Origin: Myxococcales bacterium
GTDB taxonomy: Bacteria; Myxococcota_A; Polyangia; Polyangiales; Ga0077539
Direction: 5' to 3'
DNA length: 64,000 bases
NCBI GenBank assembly: GCA_013298625.1
Contig: JAAFIF010000003.1
Span: 124,001 to 188,000, forward strand
Positions 1-62,552 of the stretch are shown here, piece after piece (the first letter of the stretch is position 1; each line of letters opens with the position of its first letter). Under the pieces are notes generated by a model. The model did no database searches. It was not told the DNA's origin and was given only the letters and a program-made list of their open reading frames with translations. A program made the position numbers and the translations under genes.

Positions 1-1
1 G

Positions 2-1042
2 CGGCGCGAGGGCGGTGATTTCTACACTGTCGCGGTCAACCGCCAGAACGTCCGGCCCGGCACGACCTTCTATGATCCCAACGGCCACGTGCTCGTCGTC
101 ACCTCGGTCGAGCCCGACGGATCGGTGTTCATGATGGACGGTCACCCCGACGGATCGCTCACCAGCAAACGCTTCGGCGCGGCCTTCGTCGCGGGTACGT
201 ACGACCTCGGCGGCGGCTTCAAGAACTTCAGGCCCGTTCGCTTGGAGGGTCGCCAGGTCACCATCGCGCGCAACGCCGACTGCCCTGGATGGGACGCGGC
301 GCAGCAGTACACGCGCGCCAACTTCATCGTGAACGGCGAGGCCGTGGGCTACAGCGAATACGCTCGCTCGTTGCTCGCAGACCCCAACGCGCAGCAAGAC
401 CCTGTGCACGAGGTCCGCGCGCAAATCACCGCGCTCTGCGGCGACATCACCGACCGCGTCGACGCTGTGAACTACGCGATCACCAACAACCTGCACCAGC
501 GCTCGCACCCCAACGAGCTCCCGAGCAACATCTACGGAACGGACGGCGACTGGGAGACCTACTCGACGCCCTCGCGTGACGCGCGGCTCAAGGCCGCCTT
601 TCGCGAGCTCGCGCACACGATTCAAGTCACGCTGCGCAGGGACCCTTCGCAGCTCGAAGCCGTGCGCGCCGCGTGGCGCGAAGAAGTCGCGCGACCCGCG
701 TGCCAGTTTCAGTACACCAACTCGCGCGCGACGGTGGTCAGCCTCTCGTTCGAGACCGTGCTCGATCGCTTGTTCGCGCTGTCGTTCGACCCGTATCACT
801 GCCCCGAGCTGCGCTGGGGCGCCGCCGCGGGCTCGCCCGAGCTCGCGACGTGCCCGGACAACGAGCTCAAGCGCATCTGGTATGCGCGCGAGCTTCGCCT
901 GCGCAATCGCATCGACCGCGAGTACGGCGCGCCGACGCCGGTGACGTTCGGCCCCGATCGCCCCGAAAACGTGGACCCGCGCCAGTGGCTCACCAACCCG
1001 CCCCCCGCGGATCCTCCGCGCGACGCGGGCGCGCGACGCTGA
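2..1042 (+). CDS. Hypothetical protein, 5' end cut by window edge
   Basis: The reading frame is open from base 2, well before the first possible internal start (GTG at 89), and the upstream residues (REGGDFYTVAVNRQNV) join smoothly to it, so this is the C-terminal part of a longer gene. I do not recognise the family. The N-terminal visible part has alternating hydrophobic strands with two His-containing segments (NGHVLVVT and MDGHPDG), faintly like the His side of an NlpC/CHAP-type fold, but no catalytic Cys is visible in this fragment. The C-terminal end is Pro/Arg-rich. Its TGA directly abuts the stop codon of the convergent kbl gene, with no spacer and no visible terminator. Confidence 0.7.
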   Translation, partial: RREGGDFYTVAVNRQNVRPGTTFYDPNGHVLVVTSVEPDGSVFMMDGHPDGSLTSKRFGAAFVAGTYDLGGGFKNFRPVRLEGRQVTIARNADCPGWDAAQQYTRANFIVNGEAVGYSEYARSLLADPNAQQDPVHEVRAQITALCGDITDRVDAVNYAITNNLHQRSHPNELPSNIYGTDGDWETYSTPSRDARLKAAFRELAHTIQVTLRRDPSQLEAVRAAWREEVARPACQFQYTNSRATVVSLSFETVLDRLFALSFDPYHCPELRWGAAAGSPELATCPDNELKRIWYARELRLRNRIDREYGAPTPVTFGPDRPENVDPRQWLTNPPPADPPRDAGARR

Positions 1043-7750: not shown

Positions 7751-9562
7751 ATGCGTCGCGCAATACACGCACCCGTTTTCATGTTCGCGCTCGCGGCGTG
7801 CTCTCCTCGCCCGATGCCCGACGCCTCCGTCGCCGACGCTGGGCCCGACGCCATCGACGACGTCGGCCCCGACGCGGTCAGCAGACCGGACGCGAACCCG
7901 CCGCGGCCCACCACCGCGTACGTGCCCAACGAGCCGCGCCTGCGCAGGCTCACGCAGCGGCAGTACACCAACACCGTGCGAGACATCCTCGGCGAGAGCC
8001 TGGTGGTGACTCGCTCGCTCGAACCCGACGTTCGCGCCGAAGGGTCGACCAGCATCGGCGGGACCAACAGCACGATTTCGCAGCGCGGGACCGAGCAGTT
8101 TCAAGACTCCGCCTACGACATCGCGCAGCAGGTCCTTCGCAGCGCCGAGCGCCGAGCGATGGTGCTCTCGTGCACGCCCGCCGCGGTGCGTGACGACGCG
8201 TGCGCAGAGAGCTTTCTGCGCGCGTACGGAAAGCGCCTGTGGCGACGCCCGCTCAGCGACAGCGAGCTCGCCACGCTGGTCACGATTTCGGGCCGCGCCG
8301 CTGATGCGCTGACCGACTTTCACCGCGGCCTCGAGTTCGGCCTCGCGGGGCTCTTGCAAGCGCCCGAGTTTCTCTTTCGCGCCGAGATCGGCACGATGCG
8401 CGGCGCCGAGCGTCGCTTCGAGCGCTTCGAGCTCGCCTCGCGCCTCGCCTACTTTCTCTGGAACGGCCCCCCCGACGACGCCCTGCTCTCGGCCGCCGAG
8501 AACAACCAGCTCGAAGACAGCGCGATGCTCGGCGCGCAGATCGATCGCATGCTCGCCTCGCCGAAGGCGCGCCGCGGCCTCGAGGCGTTCTTCACCGACT
8601 GGCTCCGCCTCGACGAGCTCGACTTCATCTCGCGCGACGCGACGCTCTACCCCGCGTTCGGCGCGGACTTCGGCCCGTCGGCGCGCGAAGAGGTCCTGCG
8701 CACGCTCGACTGGATCGCGCTCGACCGCGACGCGGATTTTCGCGACGCCCTCACGACGCGAGAGACCTTCGTCAACCGACGGCTCGCGTCGATCTACGGA
8801 GTGACCTTCCCCGTGCGCGGCGCGCCCGTCACGCAGTTCGAGCGCGTGGAGTTTCCTGCGTCGCAGCCGCGGCGAGGCATCCTCGGGATGGCCGCGTTTC
8901 TCGCGCTCGAAGCGCACCCGACGTCCACGTCCCCCACGCTGCGCGGCAAGTTCGTCCGAGAGATCCTCCTCTGCCAGACGATGCCCGCGCCCCCGGTGGG
9001 CGTAAACACCGCCGTCCCCGAGCCCTCGGCGACCGCGCGCACCCTGCGCGATCGACTGCAAGTGCACCAAGAAGTGCCCTCGTGCCGCGGCTGCCATCTG
9101 CTCATGGACAACATCGGCCTCGGCTTCGAAAACTTCGACGCCCTCGGCCGCTATCGCACCATCGAGAACGGCGTCCTCATCGACGCGAGCGGCACGCTCG
9201 ACGTGCTTCCCTTCGCCAACGCTGCAGAGCTCGCCAACACGCTGCGCGACGACCCTGCCTTTCCTCGCTGCATGGTCAACAGGCTCTACCGTCACGCGTG
9301 GGGCTTTCACGAAGAAGAGCCGCAGCGCGAAGAGGTCGAGCGGCTGCTCACGTCGTTCTCGACCAGCGGGTTCAAGCTCAAGGGGCTCTTGCGAACGATC
9401 GCGATCGGCGAGGCGTTTCGCAGGGCTTCTGTCATCGAGATCCCGCCGCTCCCGCCGTTGCCCGACGCCGGCGCCCCTGCCGATTCGAGCAGCGACGCGC
9501 GCGCTGACGTCACCACGGACGCGAGCGCGGGCACCGACGCAACCACGGAGGCCGACCGATGA
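7751..9562 (+). CDS. DUF1587-DUF1595-DUF1592-DUF1588-DUF1585 lipoprotein (planctomycete-cytochrome-like)
   Basis: 603 aa. Signal/lipobox ALAAC near residue 17 and an Asp/Pro linker, then the five domains that occur together in Planctomycetes and Myxococcota: DUF1587 (RRLTQRQYTNTVRDILG, 65-81), DUF1595 (FLRAYGKRLWRRPLSDSE, 155-172), DUF1592 (about 190-330), DUF1588 (about 370-470) and DUF1585 (about 475-555). A CRGCH motif at 445-449 fits a CXXCH covalent heme site in the DUF1588 part. Biochemical function of the family is unknown. The Asp/Ala-rich tail overlaps the DUF1552 gene by 4 nt (ATGA), the usual partner gene. Confidence 0.9.
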   Translation: MRRAIHAPVFMFALAACSPRPMPDASVADAGPDAIDDVGPDAVSRPDANPPRPTTAYVPNEPRLRRLTQRQYTNTVRDILGESLVVTRSLEPDVRAEGSTSIGGTNSTISQRGTEQFQDSAYDIAQQVLRSAERRAMVLSCTPAAVRDDACAESFLRAYGKRLWRRPLSDSELATLVTISGRAADALTDFHRGLEFGLAGLLQAPEFLFRAEIGTMRGAERRFERFELASRLAYFLWNGPPDDALLSAAENNQLEDSAMLGAQIDRMLASPKARRGLEAFFTDWLRLDELDFISRDATLYPAFGADFGPSAREEVLRTLDWIALDRDADFRDALTTRETFVNRRLASIYGVTFPVRGAPVTQFERVEFPASQPRRGILGMAAFLALEAHPTSTSPTLRGKFVREILLCQTMPAPPVGVNTAVPEPSATARTLRDRLQVHQEVPSCRGCHLLMDNIGLGFENFDALGRYRTIENGVLIDASGTLDVLPFANAAELANTLRDDPAFPRCMVNRLYRHAWGFHEEEPQREEVERLLTSFSTSGFKLKGLLRTIAIGEAFRRASVIEIPPLPPLPDAGAPADSSSDARADVTTDASAGTDATTEADR

Positions 9563-50743: not shown

Positions 50744-53700
50744 TCACTCGAACTCGAGGCGAAAGCGCCAGTCGATGCCGCCGTTGACCTGGCCCGAGCG
50801 GTTCTGCGCGCCGGTCTGGCCGTAGTTGTCGACGCCGACCTGGATGCTGTGCTGGCGGTTGATGTCGTAGTCGATGGTCCCGCGGACCTCGCGCTGCTCG
50901 GTGATGTTGACGGTGGCGCCGGCGCGGACGCCGGTGGCGATCGGGACGCGGACGCTGACTTGGGGGACAGTGCGGCCCTGCGTGGGCGAGTAGCCGCTGG
51001 TGATGTTGAAGTCCGAGATGATCGGGACGTTGCGGCGCACGATGCGGTCGATGCCAGTGAGGTTGGAGAGGGCTTCGACGGCGAGGATCTGGCCGAGGTC
51101 CGTGGTTCCGAGCTGGTCGAGCTCGGCGCGGGTCATGCGAAAGGCGAGCATGAGGGCGATGTCTTCGCGAGAGAGCGAGGGCTCTGCGCTCATGTCGAGG
51201 GCGAAGCGCTCGCGGGTGCCGTACGCGTGCAGGTCGATGCGCCACTGGTTGCGGGCGCCTGCGCTCTCGCTCGAGCGGCGGATGTCCGTGGTGGCGAGCA
51301 CGTCGAAGGTGGGCGAGATGCGCTCGGGGTTGTCGAACTCGATGCGCGAGCGGCGGACCTCGAACTCGTTGCCGCGAAAGAAGACTCGGCCGCGCGGGAT
51401 GGTGAGCAGCCCGAGGACGCTCGGGCGCTGGTCGGTCCCGACGATGCGAAACGGCGTGGACGGCGAGAGGGCGATGTCCGCGTCGATGAGGTTGTTGCGG
51501 ATGCGAACGGGCTCTCGCGAGCGCAGCTCGAGCGCGAGCTGGACGCGGTCGCGGGTCGGGTCGTAGGGCTCTTCGGGCGCGGCGAGGCTGGTGCTGCCGC
51601 TGTCCGAGATGAGGGCCATGTCGATCGGTCGGGTGTAGCGGGCGCGGTTGAGCGTGACGTGGCCCGTAAAGGTCGGGAGCGGGTCGCCTTCGGCGAAGGA
51701 CAAGCGGGTGTCGGCGTCGAGGGCGATCTCGATTCCGCTGCTCGGGCTGAGCGCGAGGTTGCGCACGACGAGCGGAACATCGACGCGCTCGAGGTCGCGG
51801 CCGCGAAAGCGCACGACGCCGCCGGACAGGTCGATGGAGCTCGAGCCGAAGCGAGCGCGGGCGCGTTCGAGGGAGACCTGCGTTCCTTCGAGGCGGATCG
51901 TCAGGTCGAGGTCGTCCACGGACTGCGGCAGCGCGGCGGCGCGCAAGCTGCCCGAGTCGAGCTCGACCAGCCCGCGCAGCTCGGGCGAGTCGGTGTTGCC
52001 GCCCACTGCGACGCGAAAGTGCGCGGTCCCGCGGGCCTCTTGCACGAGCGCAGGAAACCGCCGCGCCAGCTGCGCGAGGTCCGCTTCGCCCGAGAGCGTG
52101 AGCGCGAGCGTTCCGTCCGTGGTGGCGCCGCCAGCGATGGCCAGCGTGACGCCGTCGGGGCCGAGGATCGGCGAGACCGGCAGCGCCGCAGCCGCCGTCT
52201 GCGCCGTCCGCGTGAACAGCCCCCGCGGCGCGGCCGCGCACGGCGCGCTCGATCGCGCGGCGGCCGGGTCGATCCAGAGCCTCCCGTCGTTGGCGCACAC
52301 CGCCAGCGGCGCGTTGGACGGGAGCGCCACGCGCACGCCCATCGCGCGCAAGTCCAACGCGTCGAGGGCGACCCGTGCACGCGCATGCATGGGATCTCTC
52401 AACGACAGCTCTTCGACGTGAATGCGCGCGGCCGCCCTCGCGAGCGGCGCGTCTCCGAGGCGCGCCACGAGCCGCGCGGGCATCCACGGCAGCAGGTCGA
52501 TCGCGGCGCTCGTACCTGTGGCGTTCGGATGCGACAGCTCGACGGAGCCCTGCATGACCGCGTCCCGCCACGAGCGCCCGAAATCGCGCTGCCAATTGCC
52601 GTCCGCGTCGCGCCACGGCTCTTGCACAAACGGAACGAGCAGGCTCCCGTCGATGCGCACCGAGCCGTCGACCGCGTCGGCCACGAGCGACCATCGCTGC
52701 GGGTCTGGAAGGGGCGCCGCAGCGACCTGCGGCCTGTGCTCGGCGCTGCGCGCGATGCGCTCGTTGACGGACTCTTGCGTGAGGCGCCCGGTCGGGTCCG
52801 GCGTCGAGCGCAAGCGCAAGCGCACGCTGCCGAACTCGCGCTGCGCCGCGCTCAGGTCGCGCACGTCCGCGTCGATGGACCATCGCTGCGACTCCGCGGT
52901 GCCTTCGAGCACGCCCGTCCCGTCGACGATCCCGCGGAGGTTCATCCCATCGGTGAGCGTGAGGCGCCCGAGGTCTGCTCCGCGCACGGAGCCTGTGATG
53001 TGCATGCGAGCGCCAAGGTCGACGGAGCCGCCGGCCTCGAGGGTCCCGTTGGCGACGCGTCCGCGCGCGTACTCGATGCCGAGCCGCGAGCCGCGAAATC
53101 CCCGGTTGCGGATGAGCCAATCGTACGTGGCGTGCAGGTCCGCGTGCTGGATCGTCTCGCCGAACGCGTGCACCGCGAGGTCCCACCCGCGCACGTCCGC
53201 GTGCAGGACTCCCTTGGGATCGTCGCCCGGTCGACCGAGCACGTACTCGACGTCGGCGCGCACGAAGCCGTGCCTCGGTCGCGCGTTCGCAGGGCGCTCT
53301 TCGCCGCGCCGCGATCGGGGTCGCGCGCTCTCGCTCACCCAGCACTCGCTGCGCGGCAGCGCGCGGTCGTGCGACGCGAGCCCGCAGTCTTGCATCGTCC
53401 CGCCCGTGTACGGCTCGAAGACCGGGTCTCCTTCGAACTCGAACATGTGATAGTAGTCCGCGAGCTGAGCGTCCGACGACTCGACGCGCGCGGCTGCAAC
53501 CAACGTATACCTGGAGAAATCCAGGATCGCGTCGCGCGCGCTGAACACGCTGCGACCCTGGCGCACGATGAGCTCGGGGCCGCGCAGGGTGATCCCGCGC
53601 AGCTGCCACGGCTTGCCCGGCGCGGTCTCGAGGTCGCCGATCGGCAGGCCCGCGAACTGAAACCCACGCACGCGCGTGGTGCCCGACACGATGATGTCCG

Positions 53701-55477
53701 AGAACGGTCCTCCGCCGTTGACCACGGCTTCGGCGTGGCCGGCGATGGGGATTCCGGCGATGGTGCCGACGTCCGAGAGGTCGATCGCCGTGCTGCGAAT
53801 GTTGCGCACGACCATGTCGGGCCTGCTCGGGTCGTGCACGGTCCGCACTTCGACCTCGTCGCCGACGATGTGCGTGTGGCCGAAGTCCGCGCGCATGTCG
53901 CTGAAGCGCACGAACAGCGAGTCTAGGTCGAGGTCGAGCGCGACGCGCCCGCGCGGGATCGAGATGATGGGCTCGTGCGGCGGACCCCAGCGATGAAAGT
54001 CCTTCACGATCGCAAAATCGCGGGTGTCCGCGTCGATCTCGAGGTGCATCCCAGGGCGCGCGCGGTCCGGCGGCTGCCCGAAGCGCTCGGGGATCAGGGT
54101 GATCTCCGCGAGCGCGTCGATGGACCACAGGACCTTGGCGAAGTCCGTGACGGACACCTCGCGCATGAGTTGCTCGAAGCGGAGCCCCTGCGTCTCGAAG
54201 AAGCCATCGAGCCGCACGGTGGGCGTGAGCGAGAAGACCAGCGGTCGATCGGGCCTGCGCGGAGAGGGCGAGAGCACCCTTCCTCCGCCGTAGCGGGCGT
54301 CGAGTCGATCGACGATGAGCGCGCGGTGCGTCCCGTGAAAATCCAGCTCGATCGACTGTCCTCCGCCGAACGTCCCGTTGCGGCCGAGGGGCCGGGTGTC
54401 CATCAGCGTGATGGTGACCGCGCGCGCGCTGGCGTGCCCCCGCACCTCGGCGGACATCGACGCGGGGTTGAACGTGGCGCTCGCCTCGACGCTCACGTCG
54501 CCGCGCAACAACGGGGCGGTTCGAGGCAGCGGGCAGGTGGCCACGGACAGCGGAACCCTCGCGCGCACGCTCGCGCGGATCGCCTCGCGGAGGTTCAGCG
54601 GCACGAGCGCGTCGCTGACGTGCGCCTCTGCGTCGAGGGCCTCGATGTGCGCGGCGCCCACGCGGAGCACGGCGAAATCACGGAGCTCGGCGCGCGCTTC
54701 GATTCTGCGAATGGGGCCGTCGAAGCACTTGAGCCCCGTGTGCTGGCTGGTGATGGGGCTGCTCAGCGAGCCGCCGCGCGAGAGCAGGCCGACGAGCAGT
54801 CGTTGATTGTTGTCGTTGCGCACGTCGAGGTCGACGGACTCGAGCGTGATCGACCCGATCTGGTCGTGCTCGACGCGCACGCGCACGTCGGACACTGCGA
54901 TGTCACGAAAGGGCAGCTGCGGCGGTCCTGGGGGCGGAGCTGGGCCGGGCTTGACCACGGGGCCGTTGGCGAGGCGCCCGTTCTTGAACACCACGCGCAC
55001 TTCGCCGCCGTCGATTTCGATCGCCGAAATCTGCGGCGCGCCGCGCAGCAACGAGCGCAGCGAAGGGCGCAGGTCTGCCCACTCGACGCGCGCGAGGAGG
55101 CCCTCGGTGGGGTGCCGGACTTCGACGGATTCGGCGTGGATGGCCATGCGTCGCCAGGACCAGCCGGCGCGACCGATGGAGAGCTCGAGGCCCGTGGCTG
55201 CGCGCACCTGCTGCGAGATCGTCGTGATGGTCTTGCGCGCGGCCCACTCGGTGCGTGCGACGAGCGTGACGACGGCGACGAGCGCGAGCAGGACGAACGA
55301 TGCGACCGTGCGACGACCGCTGCGACGTGGCTTCTTCTTGTCGGTCGACGGAGAAGAATCTCTGGGCGCGGTCGAGACCGAATCGGGGTCGCCCTGCTCG
55401 AGCGCAGACGATGGCGATGGCGCTTGCTCGGGCGCCTCCGTCGTCGGTGCGTCGGTCTCGTGGGCGTTGTCGGTCAT
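50744..55477 (-). CDS. TamB-like translocation/assembly protein
   Basis: 1577 aa. Short cytoplasmic N-terminus with basic tract KKKPRRSGRR, one transmembrane helix (about 57-73, ASFVLLALVAVVTLVA), then a very long beta-rich periplasmic part (many repeats such as RGHASARAVTITLMDTR, SVDLGARMHITGSVRGADLG), ending with the conserved C-terminal DUF490/TamB block (SPTFDVLATTDIRRSS, SREDIALMLAFRMTRAEL, GVDNYGQTG...GIDWRFRLEFE). TamB bridges inner and outer membranes in outer-membrane protein or lipid transport. TamA is not adjacent. Confidence 0.92.
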   Translation of the reverse strand: MTDNAHETDAPTTEAPEQAPSPSSALEQGDPDSVSTAPRDSSPSTDKKKPRRSGRRTVASFVLLALVAVVTLVARTEWAARKTITTISQQVRAATGLELSIGRAGWSWRRMAIHAESVEVRHPTEGLLARVEWADLRPSLRSLLRGAPQISAIEIDGGEVRVVFKNGRLANGPVVKPGPAPPPGPPQLPFRDIAVSDVRVRVEHDQIGSITLESVDLDVRNDNNQRLLVGLLSRGGSLSSPITSQHTGLKCFDGPIRRIEARAELRDFAVLRVGAAHIEALDAEAHVSDALVPLNLREAIRASVRARVPLSVATCPLPRTAPLLRGDVSVEASATFNPASMSAEVRGHASARAVTITLMDTRPLGRNGTFGGGQSIELDFHGTHRALIVDRLDARYGGGRVLSPSPRRPDRPLVFSLTPTVRLDGFFETQGLRFEQLMREVSVTDFAKVLWSIDALAEITLIPERFGQPPDRARPGMHLEIDADTRDFAIVKDFHRWGPPHEPIISIPRGRVALDLDLDSLFVRFSDMRADFGHTHIVGDEVEVRTVHDPSRPDMVVRNIRSTAIDLSDVGTIAGIPIAGHAEAVVNGGGPFSDIIVSGTTRVRGFQFAGLPIGDLETAPGKPWQLRGITLRGPELIVRQGRSVFSARDAILDFSRYTLVAAARVESSDAQLADYYHMFEFEGDPVFEPYTGGTMQDCGLASHDRALPRSECWVSESARPRSRRGEERPANARPRHGFVRADVEYVLGRPGDDPKGVLHADVRGWDLAVHAFGETIQHADLHATYDWLIRNRGFRGSRLGIEYARGRVANGTLEAGGSVDLGARMHITGSVRGADLGRLTLTDGMNLRGIVDGTGVLEGTAESQRWSIDADVRDLSAAQREFGSVRLRLRSTPDPTGRLTQESVNERIARSAEHRPQVAAAPLPDPQRWSLVADAVDGSVRIDGSLLVPFVQEPWRDADGNWQRDFGRSWRDAVMQGSVELSHPNATGTSAAIDLLPWMPARLVARLGDAPLARAAARIHVEELSLRDPMHARARVALDALDLRAMGVRVALPSNAPLAVCANDGRLWIDPAAARSSAPCAAAPRGLFTRTAQTAAAALPVSPILGPDGVTLAIAGGATTDGTLALTLSGEADLAQLARRFPALVQEARGTAHFRVAVGGNTDSPELRGLVELDSGSLRAAALPQSVDDLDLTIRLEGTQVSLERARARFGSSSIDLSGGVVRFRGRDLERVDVPLVVRNLALSPSSGIEIALDADTRLSFAEGDPLPTFTGHVTLNRARYTRPIDMALISDSGSTSLAAPEEPYDPTRDRVQLALELRSREPVRIRNNLIDADIALSPSTPFRIVGTDQRPSVLGLLTIPRGRVFFRGNEFEVRRSRIEFDNPERISPTFDVLATTDIRRSSESAGARNQWRIDLHAYGTRERFALDMSAEPSLSREDIALMLAFRMTRAELDQLGTTDLGQILAVEALSNLTGIDRIVRRNVPIISDFNITSGYSPTQGRTVPQVSVRVPIATGVRAGATVNITEQREVRGTIDYDINRQHSIQVGVDNYGQTGAQNRSGQVNGGIDWRFRLEFE

Positions 55478-57170: not shown

Positions 57171-58442
57171 TCAGGCGCTCGGCGGATTCCACCCTTCGAG
57201 CGCGCGTTCGACGAGCGAGAGGCGGTCTTGTCCCCAGAAGAGCGCGTCGCCGACGCGAAACGTGGGGACTCCGAAGGCGCCGGCGTCCATGGCGGACTGC
57301 GTTCGATCGATGAGCGATTGCTTGACGGCGGGGTCGCTCGCGCGATCGATGAGGGCGCGGTCGAGCTCGCTCGCGCGAAGGCAACGGGCGAGCGTCTCGT
57401 CGGCGTCGGGGTCCTCGTCGCGCTCCCACACCGAGCGAAAGACCTCGGTCGAGAAGCGCTCGACGGGGCCGAAGTCACCGCCGTCCTCCACGGGGCAGAG
57501 CGCCGCGGCGATGCGCTGGGCGCGCAGGGTGCGCACGGGAAACTGGCTGTTCCATCGGTACGGCGCGCCCCAGAGGCGGGCCCATCGCTCGAGGTCTTCG
57601 GTGACGAACCGCTGCTTGTTCTCGGAGAAAGTCTCGAGCGGCACCGTCGGGCCGCCGAGCGCCTTGAACAGCCCGCCCAACAAGATCGGCCGCCAGATGA
57701 TCCGCGCTCCGCTGCGGGCGGCGAGCGCCTTCACACCGTACGACCCCAGGTACGCGAAGGGCGACGAAGGGTCGTAGAAGAACTCGATCGTCGACGGTCT
57801 TGAATCCGTGCGCACAAATCGACCCGCGCCGGGTTCAATGGGCTCTCCTCCGAGTGCGCGCTCGAGCATGGCGAGCCTGTCTTGCCCGAAGTACAGCTCG
57901 TCGCCGACGAACATCGCTGGCGCGCCGAAGGCTCCCCTGCGCGCGGCCTCGTCGGTGCTCGATTGCAGCGCAGCTTTGGTGCGTTGGTCGATGCCGGCGA
58001 TCACCATGGACCCGTCGACGCCCGCTTCGTCGAGGACGGTGCGCAAGATCGCAGGGTCGCCGATGTCACGATGGGTCACCCAGTGCGCGCGGTACAAGTG
58101 ATGGATCACCGCGCTCGCGGCGGCGGGCTGCCGCGCGAGCACGACCAGCGTCGCGCGCAGCGCCTCGACCGAGCGCGCATAGCCGCCAGGCCGCGGAACG
58201 CTCAGCGGTACGCCCCACAAATCCGCCCACCGACGCTGATCCGCGACGAGCATCCGCGCCTTGGTCGGGTGCAGCGTCGCGGCGAGGTTGGTCGCTGTCC
58301 CGATCGAGCGAAACAGTCCGCCGAGCAGCATCGGGCGCCACACGAGCGCGCTCTTGGTCCGCGCGCACAGCGCTTCGATCTGCGTCGACGCCAGGTACGC
58401 GTAGGGGCAGGTGTAGTCGAAGAAGAACTCGACGGTCTTCAC
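57171..58442 (-). CDS. Tandem DsbA/HCCA-isomerase-like (kappa-GST) protein
   Basis: 423 aa made of two consecutive DsbA-fold domains of the 2-hydroxychromene-2-carboxylate isomerase type. Domain 1 (about 1-205): VKTVEFFFDYTCPYAYLA at the start, LVWRPMLLGGLFRS, and AFGAPAMFVGDELYFGQDRL near the end. Domain 2 (about 210-423): STIEFFYDPSSPFAYLGS, IIWRPILLGGLFKA, and GAFGVPTFRVGDALFWGQDRL. The catalytic position is Cys in domain 1 (TCPYAY) and Ser in domain 2 (SSPFAY). Start GTG 58442 gives the family N-terminus; GTG 58460 is also open. Confidence 0.88.
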   Translation of the reverse strand: MKTVEFFFDYTCPYAYLASTQIEALCARTKSALVWRPMLLGGLFRSIGTATNLAATLHPTKARMLVADQRRWADLWGVPLSVPRPGGYARSVEALRATLVVLARQPAAASAVIHHLYRAHWVTHRDIGDPAILRTVLDEAGVDGSMVIAGIDQRTKAALQSSTDEAARRGAFGAPAMFVGDELYFGQDRLAMLERALGGEPIEPGAGRFVRTDSRPSTIEFFYDPSSPFAYLGSYGVKALAARSGARIIWRPILLGGLFKALGGPTVPLETFSENKQRFVTEDLERWARLWGAPYRWNSQFPVRTLRAQRIAAALCPVEDGGDFGPVERFSTEVFRSVWERDEDPDADETLARCLRASELDRALIDRASDPAVKQSLIDRTQSAMDAGAFGVPTFRVGDALFWGQDRLSLVERALEGWNPPSA

Positions 58443-58477
58443 GGTGCGAGCGTGCCACACTCGCGTCGCCCGCGACC

Positions 58478-59626
58478 ATGCCCTCCGCTCGTCCGCTCTC
58501 GATCGCCCTCGCGCTCTGCCTGTGCGCGGCGGCTGTCGAAGCGCAGGCGCAAACCGACGCCGCGACGGACGCGCGCTTCGAGCGTGACGCGCTCGCGGCG
58601 CTTCGGGGAAGGCTCGAGCGCGACGCGATTTCGACGGAAGAATTGCAGTCTATCGTCGTTGATGCCCGCGCGCTCGCCGCCCGATCGTCCGACGCCCGCG
58701 CCCGCGCCGAGGCGCTGTTTTACGGAGCGGACGCCGCGGACCGCGCGCGCTCGTTCTCCGCTTCGCTCGCGCTGTACCGCGCCTCGCTCGAGGCGGCGCC
58801 GGGCGCGCGCTTCGCAGGACGCGCGCGAGCGAGGGCGGCGACGCTCGCTCCCAACGAGGCCGATGGCTTCGCGGGGCTCAGCGAGCTCGAGCGATTTCGA
58901 CTGCGAATCTCCTCGGTAAGCGCCGAAGAGCTCCGCGCGTTCGCCGCGCGCGCCGCGACGTGGAGCGCGACCCCCGCCCGCGTGCAGGCTCGGCTCTTGG
59001 CCGCCTCGGGCCTCGCGCGACTCGGGGCCGACGACGACGCGGTGGCCATCTTTCGCGCGATCGCCACGGACGCGACGAGCTCATCGGACGATCGAACGCT
59101 GGCCCTGCACGAGCTCTCGCGGGTCCGCGTCGCGCAAGGTTCTCCCTCGGTCGCGCGCGACGAGCTGCGCGCGCTCAGCGCAGATCGCAGCGAGGTGGCT
59201 CACGCCTCGCGCCTCGCGCGAAGGGCGACGCTGCGTCGCGCCGCGTGGGTGCTGCTCGTCGCGCAGTGGGTGTACGGCCTCGCGTCGGTCGCGCGCGCGT
59301 GGAGGGCGGGCCTGCTCGCGCGGGTCTGGCGAGGGTGGCGTCGGCCGCTTCCGCTCGTGCACATCGGGGTGCTCACCGTCGGAGGCGCGCTGCTCACGCG
59401 CTCGTACGACCACCACGACGCCTCGCACGTCTGGGCCTTCGGCGCGGCGGTGGTCACGGTGTATCTCAGCGCGACCGCGGCGAGCGCCGTCGCGCACGGC
59501 GAGGCAGTTCGGTCGCGCGCGCGGACGGCGGGGCGTGTGATGCTCGCGGTCACCGCGGTGCTCGCGGCGAGCTTTCTCGCGATGCACCGCTTCGACGCAG
59601 GGATGCTCGATGGAATCTCACTCTGA
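58478..59626 (+). CDS. Membrane protein with exported helical-repeat domain, first gene of the rSAM operon
   Basis: 382 aa. Signal-like hydrophobic N-terminus (LSIALALCLCAAAVEAQA), then about 200 residues of Ala/Arg-rich TPR-like helices (AEALFYGADAADRARSFSASLALYRASLEA, ARLLAASGLARLGADDDAVAIFRAIA), then four transmembrane segments in the last 120 residues (AWVLLVAQWVYGLASVA; LVHIGVLTVGGALL; VWAFGAAVVTVYLSATAAS; MLAVTAVLAASFLAM). ATG 58478. Overlaps the 65-aa peptide gene by 17 nt, so it is translationally coupled to the radical-SAM operon. Confidence 0.82.
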   Translation: MPSARPLSIALALCLCAAAVEAQAQTDAATDARFERDALAALRGRLERDAISTEELQSIVVDARALAARSSDARARAEALFYGADAADRARSFSASLALYRASLEAAPGARFAGRARARAATLAPNEADGFAGLSELERFRLRISSVSAEELRAFAARAATWSATPARVQARLLAASGLARLGADDDAVAIFRAIATDATSSSDDRTLALHELSRVRVAQGSPSVARDELRALSADRSEVAHASRLARRATLRRAAWVLLVAQWVYGLASVARAWRAGLLARVWRGWRRPLPLVHIGVLTVGGALLTRSYDHHDASHVWAFGAAVVTVYLSATAASAVAHGEAVRSRARTAGRVMLAVTAVLAASFLAMHRFDAGMLDGISL

Positions 59627-59807
59627 TCAAAGCGCATCGGACCACACGGACGACGACATCCTCGTCGTGCGAAGGGGCCCTGGCGCCAACTGCTCGTCCA
59701 TCGGCAGCGCGGTCGAGATGCTCTTTCTCTCGGCGACGCTCGGCGCCGCGGTGCTCGCGGCGATCGCGGCGGCGCTCGACCCCGCCGAGCGCGAAGAGGA
59801 CCCGTGA
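59610..59807 (+). CDS. 65-aa peptide, possible substrate of the adjacent radical SAM enzyme
   Basis: An acidic/Ser-rich leader (ESHSDQSASDHTDDDILVV), a short RRGPGANCSSIGS segment (21-33, with the only Cys, C28), then one hydrophobic helix (36-57) and an acidic tail. Overlaps the upstream gene by 17 nt and its TGA overlaps the GTG start of the radical SAM gene. Position just before a SPASM radical SAM gene is typical of a ribosomally made, modified peptide precursor, but a small membrane protein with another role fits too. Homologous family not recalled. Confidence 0.72.
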   Translation: MESHSDQSASDHTDDDILVVRRGPGANCSSIGSAVEMLFLSATLGAAVLAAIAAALDPAEREEDP

Positions 59808-60949
59808 AGAGCCGACTCGAACGCTTCGGCGCGTGGGTGCAGCTCGACCCGAGCACGCTCGTCGCCGTCGGCCGCGGTCGCGCCCGCGCGCTGGGGCTCG
59901 AGGGCGGTCCGCTGTGGGACGACAGCGCAGAGACGGCGCACCCGATGCCGATCGAAGCGCACGTGAGCGTGACCGCGCGCTGTCCAGTTGAATGTGTGGG
60001 ATGTTATCAAGACGCGACCTCCGACGGCGAGCACGTCGCGCTCGACTCGCTGCGGGCGACGTTCGACGCGCTGGCGGCGGCTGGGGTGTTCACCGTGGCG
60101 CTGGGCGGAGGAGAGCCGCTGGCGCGCGCGGACCTCGGGCAGGTGGCGCGCGAGGCGAAGGCGCGCGGGCTCGCGTGCGTGCTCACCACGAGCGGCCTCG
60201 GGCTACGCGAAGAGAACATCGACGATCTGCGTGCGTTTTCGCAGGTTAACGTGAGCCACGACGGGGTGGGCGGCGCGTACCGCGCGCTGCGAGGCTTCGA
60301 CGGAGCGACCGTGGCCGAGCGCGCGATCGCGCTGCTCGCGTCCAGCGGGATCCCTGTCGGGGTCAACCTGGTGCTCTCGCGCGAGACGTTCGCGCACGTC
60401 GAGGCGACGGCCGAGCGGGTGCGGGCGCTCGGTGCGACCGAGCTGCAACTGCTGCGCTACAAGCCTGCGGGGCGCGCCGCGTCGCTCGACTACCTCGCGC
60501 GCAGGCTCACGCGGGCGCAGGTGTCCGAGCTGTGGCCGACGCTCGAGCGGCTCACGCGCGCGCACGGCGAGGCGCTGAGCGTGCGGATCGACTGCGCGAT
60601 GGTCCCGTTTCTGGTTGAGCACGTGCGAGACCCGAGGGCGCTCTCGCGCTGGGGGATCTTCGGCTGCGAGGCGGGGCGGCACCTCGCGGCGGTCGACCGC
60701 GAGGGGCTCGTGCTCGGGTGCAGCTTCGAGCGCGATCGGGTCGGAGCGCCGTTGGCAGACTGGCAGCGAGACGCGGGGCTCGAGGCGTTTCGGGCGTTCG
60801 CGGGCGACCCGCCCGAGCCGTGCCGGTCGTGCGATCTTCGCGCTGCGTGCCGCGGGGGGTGCAAGGTCGTCTCGATGTTCGTCTCTCGCACGTTCTCGAG
60901 TGACCCCGAGTGTCCTCGGGTGATCGCACACCGCGAGGCCCAGCGATGA
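59804..60949 (+). CDS. Radical SAM/SPASM peptide-modifying enzyme
   Basis: 381 aa from a GTG start. Radical SAM cluster motif C60-x3-C64-x2-C67 (ARCPVECVGCYQD), GGGEP at 101-105, and a SPASM-type C-terminal Cys set: C264, C288, C306, C340, C343, C349, C353, C370 (as in EPCRSCDLRAACRGGC). Such enzymes make C-C, C-S or other cross-links or epimerise residues in small peptides, using auxiliary Fe-S clusters. No separate RRE gene is visible; the first 50 residues (LERFGAWVQLDPSTLVAVGRGRARALG) may serve recognition. Overlaps neighbours by 4 nt on both sides. Confidence 0.92.
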   Translation: MKSRLERFGAWVQLDPSTLVAVGRGRARALGLEGGPLWDDSAETAHPMPIEAHVSVTARCPVECVGCYQDATSDGEHVALDSLRATFDALAAAGVFTVALGGGEPLARADLGQVAREAKARGLACVLTTSGLGLREENIDDLRAFSQVNVSHDGVGGAYRALRGFDGATVAERAIALLASSGIPVGVNLVLSRETFAHVEATAERVRALGATELQLLRYKPAGRAASLDYLARRLTRAQVSELWPTLERLTRAHGEALSVRIDCAMVPFLVEHVRDPRALSRWGIFGCEAGRHLAAVDREGLVLGCSFERDRVGAPLADWQRDAGLEAFRAFAGDPPEPCRSCDLRAACRGGCKVVSMFVSRTFSSDPECPRVIAHREAQR

Positions 60950-61248
60950 AGCCCCGATCCCTCGTCGACGGAGCTGCGCTCGCAGCGGCGCTCGCACCGT
61001 TGGTGTACGCCGCGCTGCGCGTCGGGGCGCGGCTGCTCGGCCCCGAGCCCGACCCCGCGGCGATGTTGTGGACCGAGCGATCATCGACGCTCGACCGGCT
61101 CTCGCTCACGCTGTACGCGACGGCGCTGACGGGCTCTGCGTGCGTCGCGATTGCTAGAAAATTTGCAGACAGAATGGACTCGATCGTCCTCGCCGCCTGC
61201 GCCGTCTCGGCGACGGCGCTCTTCGCGCAGGGGGCGCTGGCGCCGTGA
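60946..61248 (+). CDS. Small membrane protein in the rSAM operon
   Basis: 100 aa with three hydrophobic segments (AALAAALAPLVYAALRVGARLL; SLTLYATALTGSACVAIA; SIVLAACAVSATALFAQGAL). ATG 60946 overlaps the radical SAM stop by 4 nt (ATGA). No family recognised. May take part in export or membrane placing of the modified peptide. Confidence 0.78.
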   Translation: MKPRSLVDGAALAAALAPLVYAALRVGARLLGPEPDPAAMLWTERSSTLDRLSLTLYATALTGSACVAIARKFADRMDSIVLAACAVSATALFAQGALAP

Positions 61249-61652
61249 GCGTGACGGGCGCCCTGCACATCGCGCTCGCGTCGGTGTCTGCGCTCTGCGC
61301 GCTCGTCGTCGCGCTGCGCCCCGAGCACGCGCGCGAGTCGTGGGCGCGGCGGCTGGCGGGGCTCACCGCGGCGCTCTCTCTCGTGCTCGGGGTGGTGGGC
61401 CAGCGTGCGTTCGAGGCGGGGCGGCTGCGGGCGGTGTACGGGCAGTCGCGCAGCGCGGGGGCGTGGCTCGAGCGGCACGAGCACTTCGGCTTCGCGGCGC
61501 TGTGCTTCGCGGTCGCGTTGGCGCTGCTGTCGAGCGAGCGATCCGCGCGCGTTCGTCGGTCGGTCGCGGCGCTGACGGTGTTGTTTGCTGCGGCTGCGTT
61601 GTGCTGCGACGCGCTGGTGCACGCGATGGTGCCCTCAGCGCTGATCGAGTGA
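61245..61652 (+). CDS. Small membrane protein, last gene of the rSAM operon
   Basis: 135 aa from a GTG start that overlaps the previous stop (GTGA). About four hydrophobic segments (ALHIALASVSALCALVVAL; LAGLTAALSLVLGVVGQ; HFGFAALCFAVALALLS; SVAALTVLFAAAALCCDAL). Its stop abuts the stop of the convergent metallophosphoesterase gene. Confidence 0.78.
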   Translation: MSVTGALHIALASVSALCALVVALRPEHARESWARRLAGLTAALSLVLGVVGQRAFEAGRLRAVYGQSRSAGAWLERHEHFGFAALCFAVALALLSSERSARVRRSVAALTVLFAAAALCCDALVHAMVPSALIE

Positions 61653-62390
61653 CTACACGCCGATGAACAGTCGGTGCGCGAAGTTGCGCTCGAGCTGCGC
61701 GCTGAAGATCTTCTGCGCGGCCGTCTCGATGTCGTACTCGACGCGCTTGAACTCGAACACGCGCGAGACGGTGTCGTAGATCACGTAGCTGGCGCGGTTG
61801 TCGTAGTCCCGCGGCTGCCCGGTCGAGCCGACGGACACGATGTACTTGCGGTCCGTGCGCAGCGTGAACTTGCGCGCGGGCAGCTCGTCGACCTCGTCCT
61901 CGGTGAGCTCGAAGACCTTGCACAGGTGCGAGTGGCCGATGAGCGTGAGGTTGTTGAGATCGTCGAAGTACGGCAGGCACTCGCGCGCTTGCTCTGGGGC
62001 GAAGATGTAGTCGAACTCTTCGATGCGCACGGGGGAGCCGTGGCAGAGCGTGACTCCCGTGCCGTCGAGCTCGTGCTTGTAGGGGAGCGAGCGCAGCCAG
62101 GCCATGTTCTCTTGCGAGAGCGTGGTGGCGTGCAGGTCGAGCGCGCGTCGGGCGGCCTCGTAGTAGTACGAGTAGTCCATGCGCCCGGCGACCGCTGCGT
62201 CGTGGTTGCCGAGGATGGTGACCTTCGCGAAGCGTCGGACGATCTCGGCGCACTCGTTGGGCGAGGCGCCGTAGCCCACGACGTCGCCGAGGCAATACTG
62301 AACGTCGACGCGCTCGCGCTTGATCGCCTCGACGACCGCAGAGAGAGCCTCGAGATTCGCGTGAACGTCGCTGAAGACACCAATCCGCAT
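61653..62390 (-). CDS. Calcineurin-like metallophosphoesterase (YfcE/diadenosine-tetraphosphatase-like)
   Basis: 245 aa. The dinuclear metal motifs are all present: D-x-H (FSDVHANLEAL, near 7-17), GDVVGYG, GNHD and GHSH, with a further VTLCHGSP. Likely hydrolyses a small phosphodiester; substrate not known. ATG 62390 chosen (MRIGVFSDVHAN). Followed upstream by a 162-bp gap with no gene. Confidence 0.93.
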   Translation of the reverse strand: MRIGVFSDVHANLEALSAVVEAIKRERVDVQYCLGDVVGYGASPNECAEIVRRFAKVTILGNHDAAVAGRMDYSYYYEAARRALDLHATTLSQENMAWLRSLPYKHELDGTGVTLCHGSPVRIEEFDYIFAPEQARECLPYFDDLNNLTLIGHSHLCKVFELTEDEVDELPARKFTLRTDRKYIVSVGSTGQPRDYDNRASYVIYDTVSRVFEFKRVEYDIETAAQKIFSAQLERNFAHRLFIGV

Positions 62391-62552
62391 CGTTAGATTC
62401 GCGAAGCTCTCGAAGGCTCGTTCGGACACTCGTAGGGGAGACCTACCGTCGTGAACGAGTCGTCAGAGTTTGCGTTCCCAATCGGTCGCAGATGCTAGCC
62501 GCGCGCGGGTTGCGCTGTCTACAGCCGATGTTGCCCGTGATCCGCGTCGCGC

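Follow-up and report, generated by a model that had tools for sequence, protein, structure and literature searches.

To our knowledge, the known peptide systems that rely on radical S-adenosylmethionine (rSAM) enzymes with a SPASM domain yield secreted ribosomally synthesized and post-translationally modified peptides (RiPPs), diffusible cofactors (pyrroloquinoline quinone, PQQ, and mycofactocin), or active-site residues (in sulfatases). The core residues of the precursors are Glu/Tyr and a C-terminal Val-Tyr in the PqqA/MftA pair. In CteB, the leader peptide binds as a strand against the RiPP recognition element (RRE) (PMC8326336), and anaerobic sulfatase-maturating enzymes (anSME) are SPASM enzymes that accept either Cys or Ser as the target residue (PMC5682303). 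Here we analyzed a stretch of 64,000 nt from the genome of a Myxococcales bacterium (contig JAAFIF010000003.1, positions 124,001 to 188,000; hereafter the window), in which a 65-aa membrane peptide (P0002, 59610-59807, + strand), the putative precursor or substrate, is followed by a 381-aa rSAM/SPASM enzyme (P0003, 59804-60949, + strand, GTG start) within a unit of five overlapping genes. That the peptide is a gene-encoded precursor dedicated to the enzyme, in a RiPP-like pairing, is strongly supported because the two genes co-occur, are duplicated in pairs, and are naturally fused in some lineages. We consider it probable that they belong to a RiPP-like maturation system (nearest to PqqE, SkfB, and SuiB) whose modified product is retained in the membrane within a small complex.

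Co-occurrence of the peptide and the enzyme in Myxococcota

We searched 379 Myxococcota genomes for both genes, using a peptide search and an enzyme profile whose scores leave a gap between orthologues (at least 260 bits) and other SPASM enzymes (at most 168 bits). The peptide was detected in 81 of the 84 genomes that carry an enzyme orthologue (Fisher p = 7e-75 for co-occurrence, a value to be read with the genomes being related, so that the events are not independent). The enzyme alone was found in the other three (3/84), and in two of these exceptions (G178 and G229) the enzyme gene starts at a contig end. Among the 295 genomes without the enzyme, three peptide matches were obtained, and these candidate peptide-only genomes (G187, G205, and G226) all turned out on inspection to be spurious chance matches. 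In addition, each of the five genomes with two enzymes (G088, G384, G407, G409, and G099) carries two peptides, and in two clades the peptide is the enzyme's own N-terminus. A stricter rule, that the peptide always lies next to the enzyme, was ruled out by nine genomes in which the two genes are on different contigs (G030, G049, G074, G160, G321, G370, G377, G393, and G410); in G049 both are near contig ends and may still adjoin.

An earlier note on this DNA, made from its letters alone, had described a five-gene operon with overlaps of 4-17 nt and an rSAM/SPASM enzyme with a full Cys set, both of which were confirmed (see below), and had read a peptide in front of a SPASM enzyme as the layout of a RiPP system. 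It had also suggested a gene-neighbourhood search across Myxococcota, and had named as evidence against its view a 65-aa frame lacking conservation in related genomes or an rSAM gene occurring alone there. The co-occurrence, paired duplications, and fusions bear out the pairing, and neither of the opposing findings was obtained: the frame shows conservation, and in genomes where the enzyme lies apart from the peptide, the latter is nearly always present elsewhere.

In a phylogenetic tree of 65 enzymes, the clade whose peptides have Ser in place of Cys (Ser clade) is split from the Cys clades on one branch (support 96/84), and the Cys/Ser switch of the peptide coincides with that single supported branch. 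The fused forms represent two groups that branch before the discrete Cys group, with the tree being midpoint-rooted and this polarity not proven.

Several observations concern the distribution of the system. Both the peptide and the enzyme orthologue are absent from two congeners of the window organism (G001 and G002), showing that the system is patchy even within the genus. Two peptide genes (in L098 near 8850-9137, G088:C3, and in L095 near 9249-9530, G074:C26) are far from any enzyme copy and are located between carB (or its neighbour) and a gene for a large secreted TPR/DUF3857/transglutaminase-like protein, with a helical-repeat protein again encoded directly upstream of the peptide. Outside Myxococcota, a lone distant enzyme relative was found in a Planctomycetota metagenome-assembled genome (MAG; L183, S40-2), which belongs to the Ser clade on a long branch and has no peptide seen nearby. 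A contig filed as a Bifidobacterium breve MAG (L193, CALQBK020000061.1) carries a Myxococcota-type enzyme together with a homologue of P0004, the gene downstream of the enzyme in the window, and is probably mis-binned or mislabelled. Viral contigs gave 79 pattern matches, none of which is a relative.

Conservation and forms of the peptide

Homologues of the 65-aa peptide were detected in relatives and then phylum-wide, and the peptide is kept across families and classes at both enzyme-linked and unlinked loci. Its 42-codon core has dN/dS values of ~0.02-0.3 in most close pairs and is under strong purifying selection. Three forms were distinguished, namely (i) the discrete Cys peptide of the window type, [IV]LxVRxGxGANCSSxGSxxDxLF, (ii) the fused form, in which LRVRRGRAPNCSSxGSVVG, a helix, a linker, and the enzyme are encoded in a single frame, and (iii) the Cys-less Ser peptide, ILAVKWGxNPNSSSLGVDVTFLL, which is either directly upstream of the enzyme or unlinked. 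Short-linker fusions, with peptide and enzyme sharing one frame and almost no linker between them, were observed in L082 and L093; the enzyme region of L093 is interrupted by additional in-frame stops.

The motif common to the three forms is [AP]N[CS]S[SA]xG, located just before one hydrophobic helix. In the window peptide it reads ANCSSIG (residues 26-32, 59685-59705, + strand), which is the proposed modification site, and the helix covers residues 38-56 (59721-59777, + strand; hydropathy 2.26) and is a helix in the structural model of a fused homologue as well. S29 and G32 (window numbering) are invariant in alignment A4, and N27 is nearly invariant. The helix is universal among the peptide forms; the most conserved part, however, is the polar N[CS]S[SA]xG together with the preceding strand. 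The segment RRGPGANCSS, put forward in the earlier note as a possible invariant core, proved too long and too centred on Cys when aligned: RR, GPG, and the Cys vary, whereas [AP]N[CS]S[SA]xG holds. Judged from the alignments, the Cys of the motif is dispensable because a whole enzyme clade has the NPNSSSLG peptide.

The enzyme and its putative peptide-binding domain

P0003 belongs to the rSAM superfamily by its match to the Pfam domain PF04055 (E 4e-17). Its CX3CX2C motif corresponds to C60-C64-C67, and its SPASM set, C288-x12-G-x4-C306 ... C340-x2-C343-x5-C349-x3-C353-x16-C370, agrees with the pattern CX9-15GX4C ... CX2CX5CX3C ... C. Across 18 diverse orthologues, both Cys sets are invariant, as are G301 of the SPASM pattern, S307 (the residue after the second SPASM Cys), and one extra Cys, C264. 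The solved structure (PDB) nearest to P0003 by profile is PqqE (E 1e-33). Matches to the NCBIfam models mycofact_rSAM (TIGR03962; E 9.5e-26, 90.8 bits) and PQQ_syn_pqqE (TIGR02109; E 6.1e-25, 87.9 bits) stay below the respective cut-offs of 265 and 381. A PADLOC scan for defence systems returned generic viperin similarity only, which arises from the rSAM fold.

The structural model is an AlphaFold model of a fused homologue (430 aa; predicted local distance difference test (pLDDT) 90.7). It could be aligned to SkfB (residues 53..420 on 12..391, Z 27.6) and to SuiB (49..426 on 1..439, Z 27.4), with the N-terminal part of the enzyme lying within the range aligned to both. Ahead of the rSAM barrel, the model has an N-terminal domain with strands 55-60, 63-69, and 72-77, and P0003 itself has a short N-terminal domain (approximately residues 1-48, within 59804-60949, + strand) that may bind the peptide. 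The absence of an RRE gene stated in the earlier note holds for a separate gene, but the enzyme's own N-terminal beta domain overlaps the leader-binding (RRE) region of SuiB and SkfB in the structural alignment of the fused model. In the peptide part of this model, residues 3-8 (ILAVRR) form a beta strand (pLDDT 86), the motif core is of low confidence (53-59), and a helix spans residues 24-43. The strand is equivalent to ILVVRRG in the window peptide (residues 17-23, 59658-59678, + strand; consensus of alignments A1/A4), and we infer from the model that ILxVRxG is a recognition strand, putatively in the window peptide as well.

Neighbouring genes for membrane proteins

According to the open reading frame (ORF) calls, the five frames of the unit (58478-61652) are all on the + strand, with successive overlaps of 17, 4, 4, and 4 nt. 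P0001 (58478-59626, + strand) encodes a 382-aa protein with a signal peptide, TPR-like helical repeats, and hydrophobic C-terminal segments. Downstream of the enzyme, P0004 (60946-61248, + strand) encodes a 100-aa small membrane protein with a PDP...WR pattern kept in its relatives, and P0005 (61245-61652, + strand, GTG start) a 135-aa four-helix membrane protein. The unit looks like a self-contained operon because it is bounded by a divergent DsbA-like gene upstream (57171-58460, minus strand) and a convergent metallophosphoesterase gene downstream (61653-62429, minus strand). No NCBIfam or Pfam family above cut-off was found for P0001, P0002, P0004, or P0005, and no ABC transporter, peptidase, or immunity gene is present in the window operon, although a peptidase may be encoded at a distance.

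All three peptide forms have homologues of P0001, P0004, and P0005 as recurring neighbours. Immediately before the gene for the peptide (or for the fused enzyme), a P0001 homologue was detected in 24/31 of the discrete, 9/9 of the fused, and 7/9 of the Ser-form loci. After the enzyme gene, P0004 homologues were present in 27/34 of the discrete, 6/8 of the fused, and 5/9 of the Ser-form loci; the corresponding numbers for P0005 homologues, also downstream, are 15/34, 4/8, and 5/9. Relatives of P0005 carry HGH, LHP, YPxYRxxVK, and FExKEHLA, including conserved His-bearing motifs, and the divergent P0005 of the window has lost several of these conserved residues. The four-helix model obtained for the P0005 relatives is confident (pLDDT 94.8), and a fold search gave no confident match, with cytochrome bo3 subunit III as the best Foldseek hit (E 0.04) and structural-alignment rows (VIA) near helical-bundle background. 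Seven P0005 members have weak COX15-CtaA matches, and a haem-binding role of P0005 is only a guess.

Six enzyme copies from Polyangium, Byssovorax, and Minicystis (L129, L132, L133, L139, L149, and L154) have no adjacent peptide, P0001, or P0004, and downstream of all of them (6/6) lies a gene for a distinct P0005-like protein with LHAxGSIVLxGASTHHALxMRH ... FDVKEVYA. Elsewhere in the window, the minus-strand neighbour at 57171-58460 encodes a single protein with two tandem DsbA-like thioredoxin domains, and an AsmA/TamB-like protein of 1577 aa is encoded at 50744-55477 (minus strand).

A possible modified membrane peptide and alternative explanations

In the RiPP-like maturation system that we favour, the N-terminal beta domain of P0003 would bind the peptide strand [IV]LxV[RHK]xG, and 5'-deoxyadenosyl-radical chemistry of the enzyme would modify [AP]N[C/S]S[S/A]xG beside the hydrophobic helix, the target being the side chain at the Cys/Ser position or one of the conserved residues near it (S29, G32, or N27). 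Since Cys and Ser alternate at one position according to enzyme clade, the shared reaction is, on these sequences, most likely not an obligatory Cys-thioether bridge. Together with the TPR-like P0001 and with P0004/P0005, the matured peptide might then form a working membrane complex. Retention of the product in the membrane is probable because of the universal hydrophobic helix, the membrane-protein partners, the fusions, and the lack of operon genes for export or proteolysis. A modified membrane peptide had already been considered in the earlier note; the helix, the membrane neighbours, and the fused forms all fit it, the modification itself being predicted. The fused forms have no obvious release step. 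It is possible, albeit somewhat doubtful, that the enzyme-altered peptide is never released and constitutes a permanent, covalently altered small subunit of the membrane complex, which may, for instance, carry a built-in redox or catalytic group at N[C/S]SSxG. Under such a permanent-subunit reading, the enzyme would carry its own putative substrate as its N-terminus in two lineages.

Several observations weigh against the maturation system. The three helices of the canonical RRE are absent before the barrel in the fused model, and the N-terminal domain of the enzyme does not fit the definition of a canonical RRE (PMC12710340). One enzyme copy in Polyangium and in Minicystis is apart from any peptide. 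The predicted topologies of the peptide forms are also in conflict. In discrete Cys peptides, the helix flank that bears the motif is the more positive one in 26/29 cases, which would place the motif inside. In the fused forms, by contrast, the enzyme lies across the helix from the motif and has to be in the cytosol, so that a spanning helix would place the motif outside. Either the fused helix is non-spanning, or modification occurs before insertion, or the two forms differ.

If the peptide were instead a membrane anchor or adaptor for the rSAM enzyme, the real substrate would be something else (P0001, P0004/P0005, a lipid, or a small molecule). The fused forms indeed resemble a membrane-anchored enzyme without a release site, and the universal helix and recurring membrane-protein neighbours agree with such a role. 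However, conservation peaks at the polar N[CS]S[SA]xG and the preceding strand rather than at the helix, and an anchor has no need for a Cys/Ser identity tied to enzyme clade and would not exist as a separate unlinked gene; we regard this explanation as unlikely. An ordinary secreted RiPP (antibiotic or signal), with protease and exporter encoded elsewhere, appears very unlikely, even though the peptide precedes a SPASM gene and the closest folds, SkfB and SuiB, are RiPP maturases, considering that the operon has a recurring five-gene membrane set in place of ABC transporter, peptidase, and immunity genes, that the precursor is fused in two clades, and that the core is nearly fixed across the phylum rather than variable. 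A spurious origin of the 65-aa frame, as a chance ORF or an artefact of overlapping genes, can be given almost no weight. The frame does run a few bases into each of the adjacent genes, and no library family matches it, but its conservation across the phylum, purifying selection, fusions, and unlinked copies refute this.

A specific chemistry within the favoured maturation system would be formylglycine-type oxidation, in which the Cys/Ser of the motif is converted to an aldehyde, as by anSME in sulfatases. The exchange of Cys and Ser at one position corresponds to the published target behaviour of anSME (PMC5682303, PMC8326336). The [C/S]-S-[S/A] spacing and the presence of anSME among the fold matches (Z 24) are also consistent with it, whereas the sequence is nearest to PqqE and mycofactocin enzymes rather than to anSME. 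Moreover, anSME have a catalytic Asp after the second SPASM Cys, where P0003 has the invariant S307, and sulfatase motifs end in Arg, unlike the motif described here. We consider this chemistry distinctly unlikely.

Comparison with known systems

Open-licence literature, searched for the motifs and for fusions of rSAM enzymes with their peptides, gave no description of the system, and neither did the NCBIfam or Pfam models; this small membrane peptide of many myxobacteria is apparently undescribed. Its features suggest a chemically modified membrane component of a new kind, not a secreted antibiotic. If this is true, a phylum-wide membrane-bound peptide, sometimes fused to its maturase, would put rSAM chemistry to a new use and provide a radical enzyme that modifies itself in nature. 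With its Cys and Ser clades, the system would offer a natural test of which atom is attacked, and cultured carriers exist (Polyangium fumosum DSM 14668 and Minicystis rosea).

PqqE/PqqA and MftC/MftA are nearest by enzyme sequence and likewise pair a SPASM enzyme with a small peptide that is dedicated to it and nearly invariant. However, P0003 scores far below the curated cut-offs, the operon lacks a PqqD or MftB gene, and the peptide has a membrane helix and membrane-protein partners and neither a conserved Glu/Tyr nor a C-terminal Val-Tyr core. SkfB and SuiB/SuiA, the best fold matches, share with the present system an N-terminal domain, here a putative recognition domain, and a peptide with a strand and a core. 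However, Cys is not obligatory in the core described here (Ser clade), which also lacks a Lys-Trp pair, the helical part of the RRE is missing, and the precursor contains a hydrophobic helix or forms one protein with the enzyme. Sactipeptides have core Cys residues that form bridges from Cys-S to C-alpha; here, Cys is present in the Cys clades and Ser occupies the same position in the Ser clade. Compared with anSME, the putative target is a membrane peptide rather than a sulfatase, and the enzyme sequence is not closest to anSME. Borosins resemble the system in that some lineages have precursor and enzyme as one protein and others have them apart (PMC8429565), but differ in that the enzyme here is a radical SAM protein rather than an N-methyltransferase, the peptide is N-terminal, and a hydrophobic helix lies between core and enzyme.

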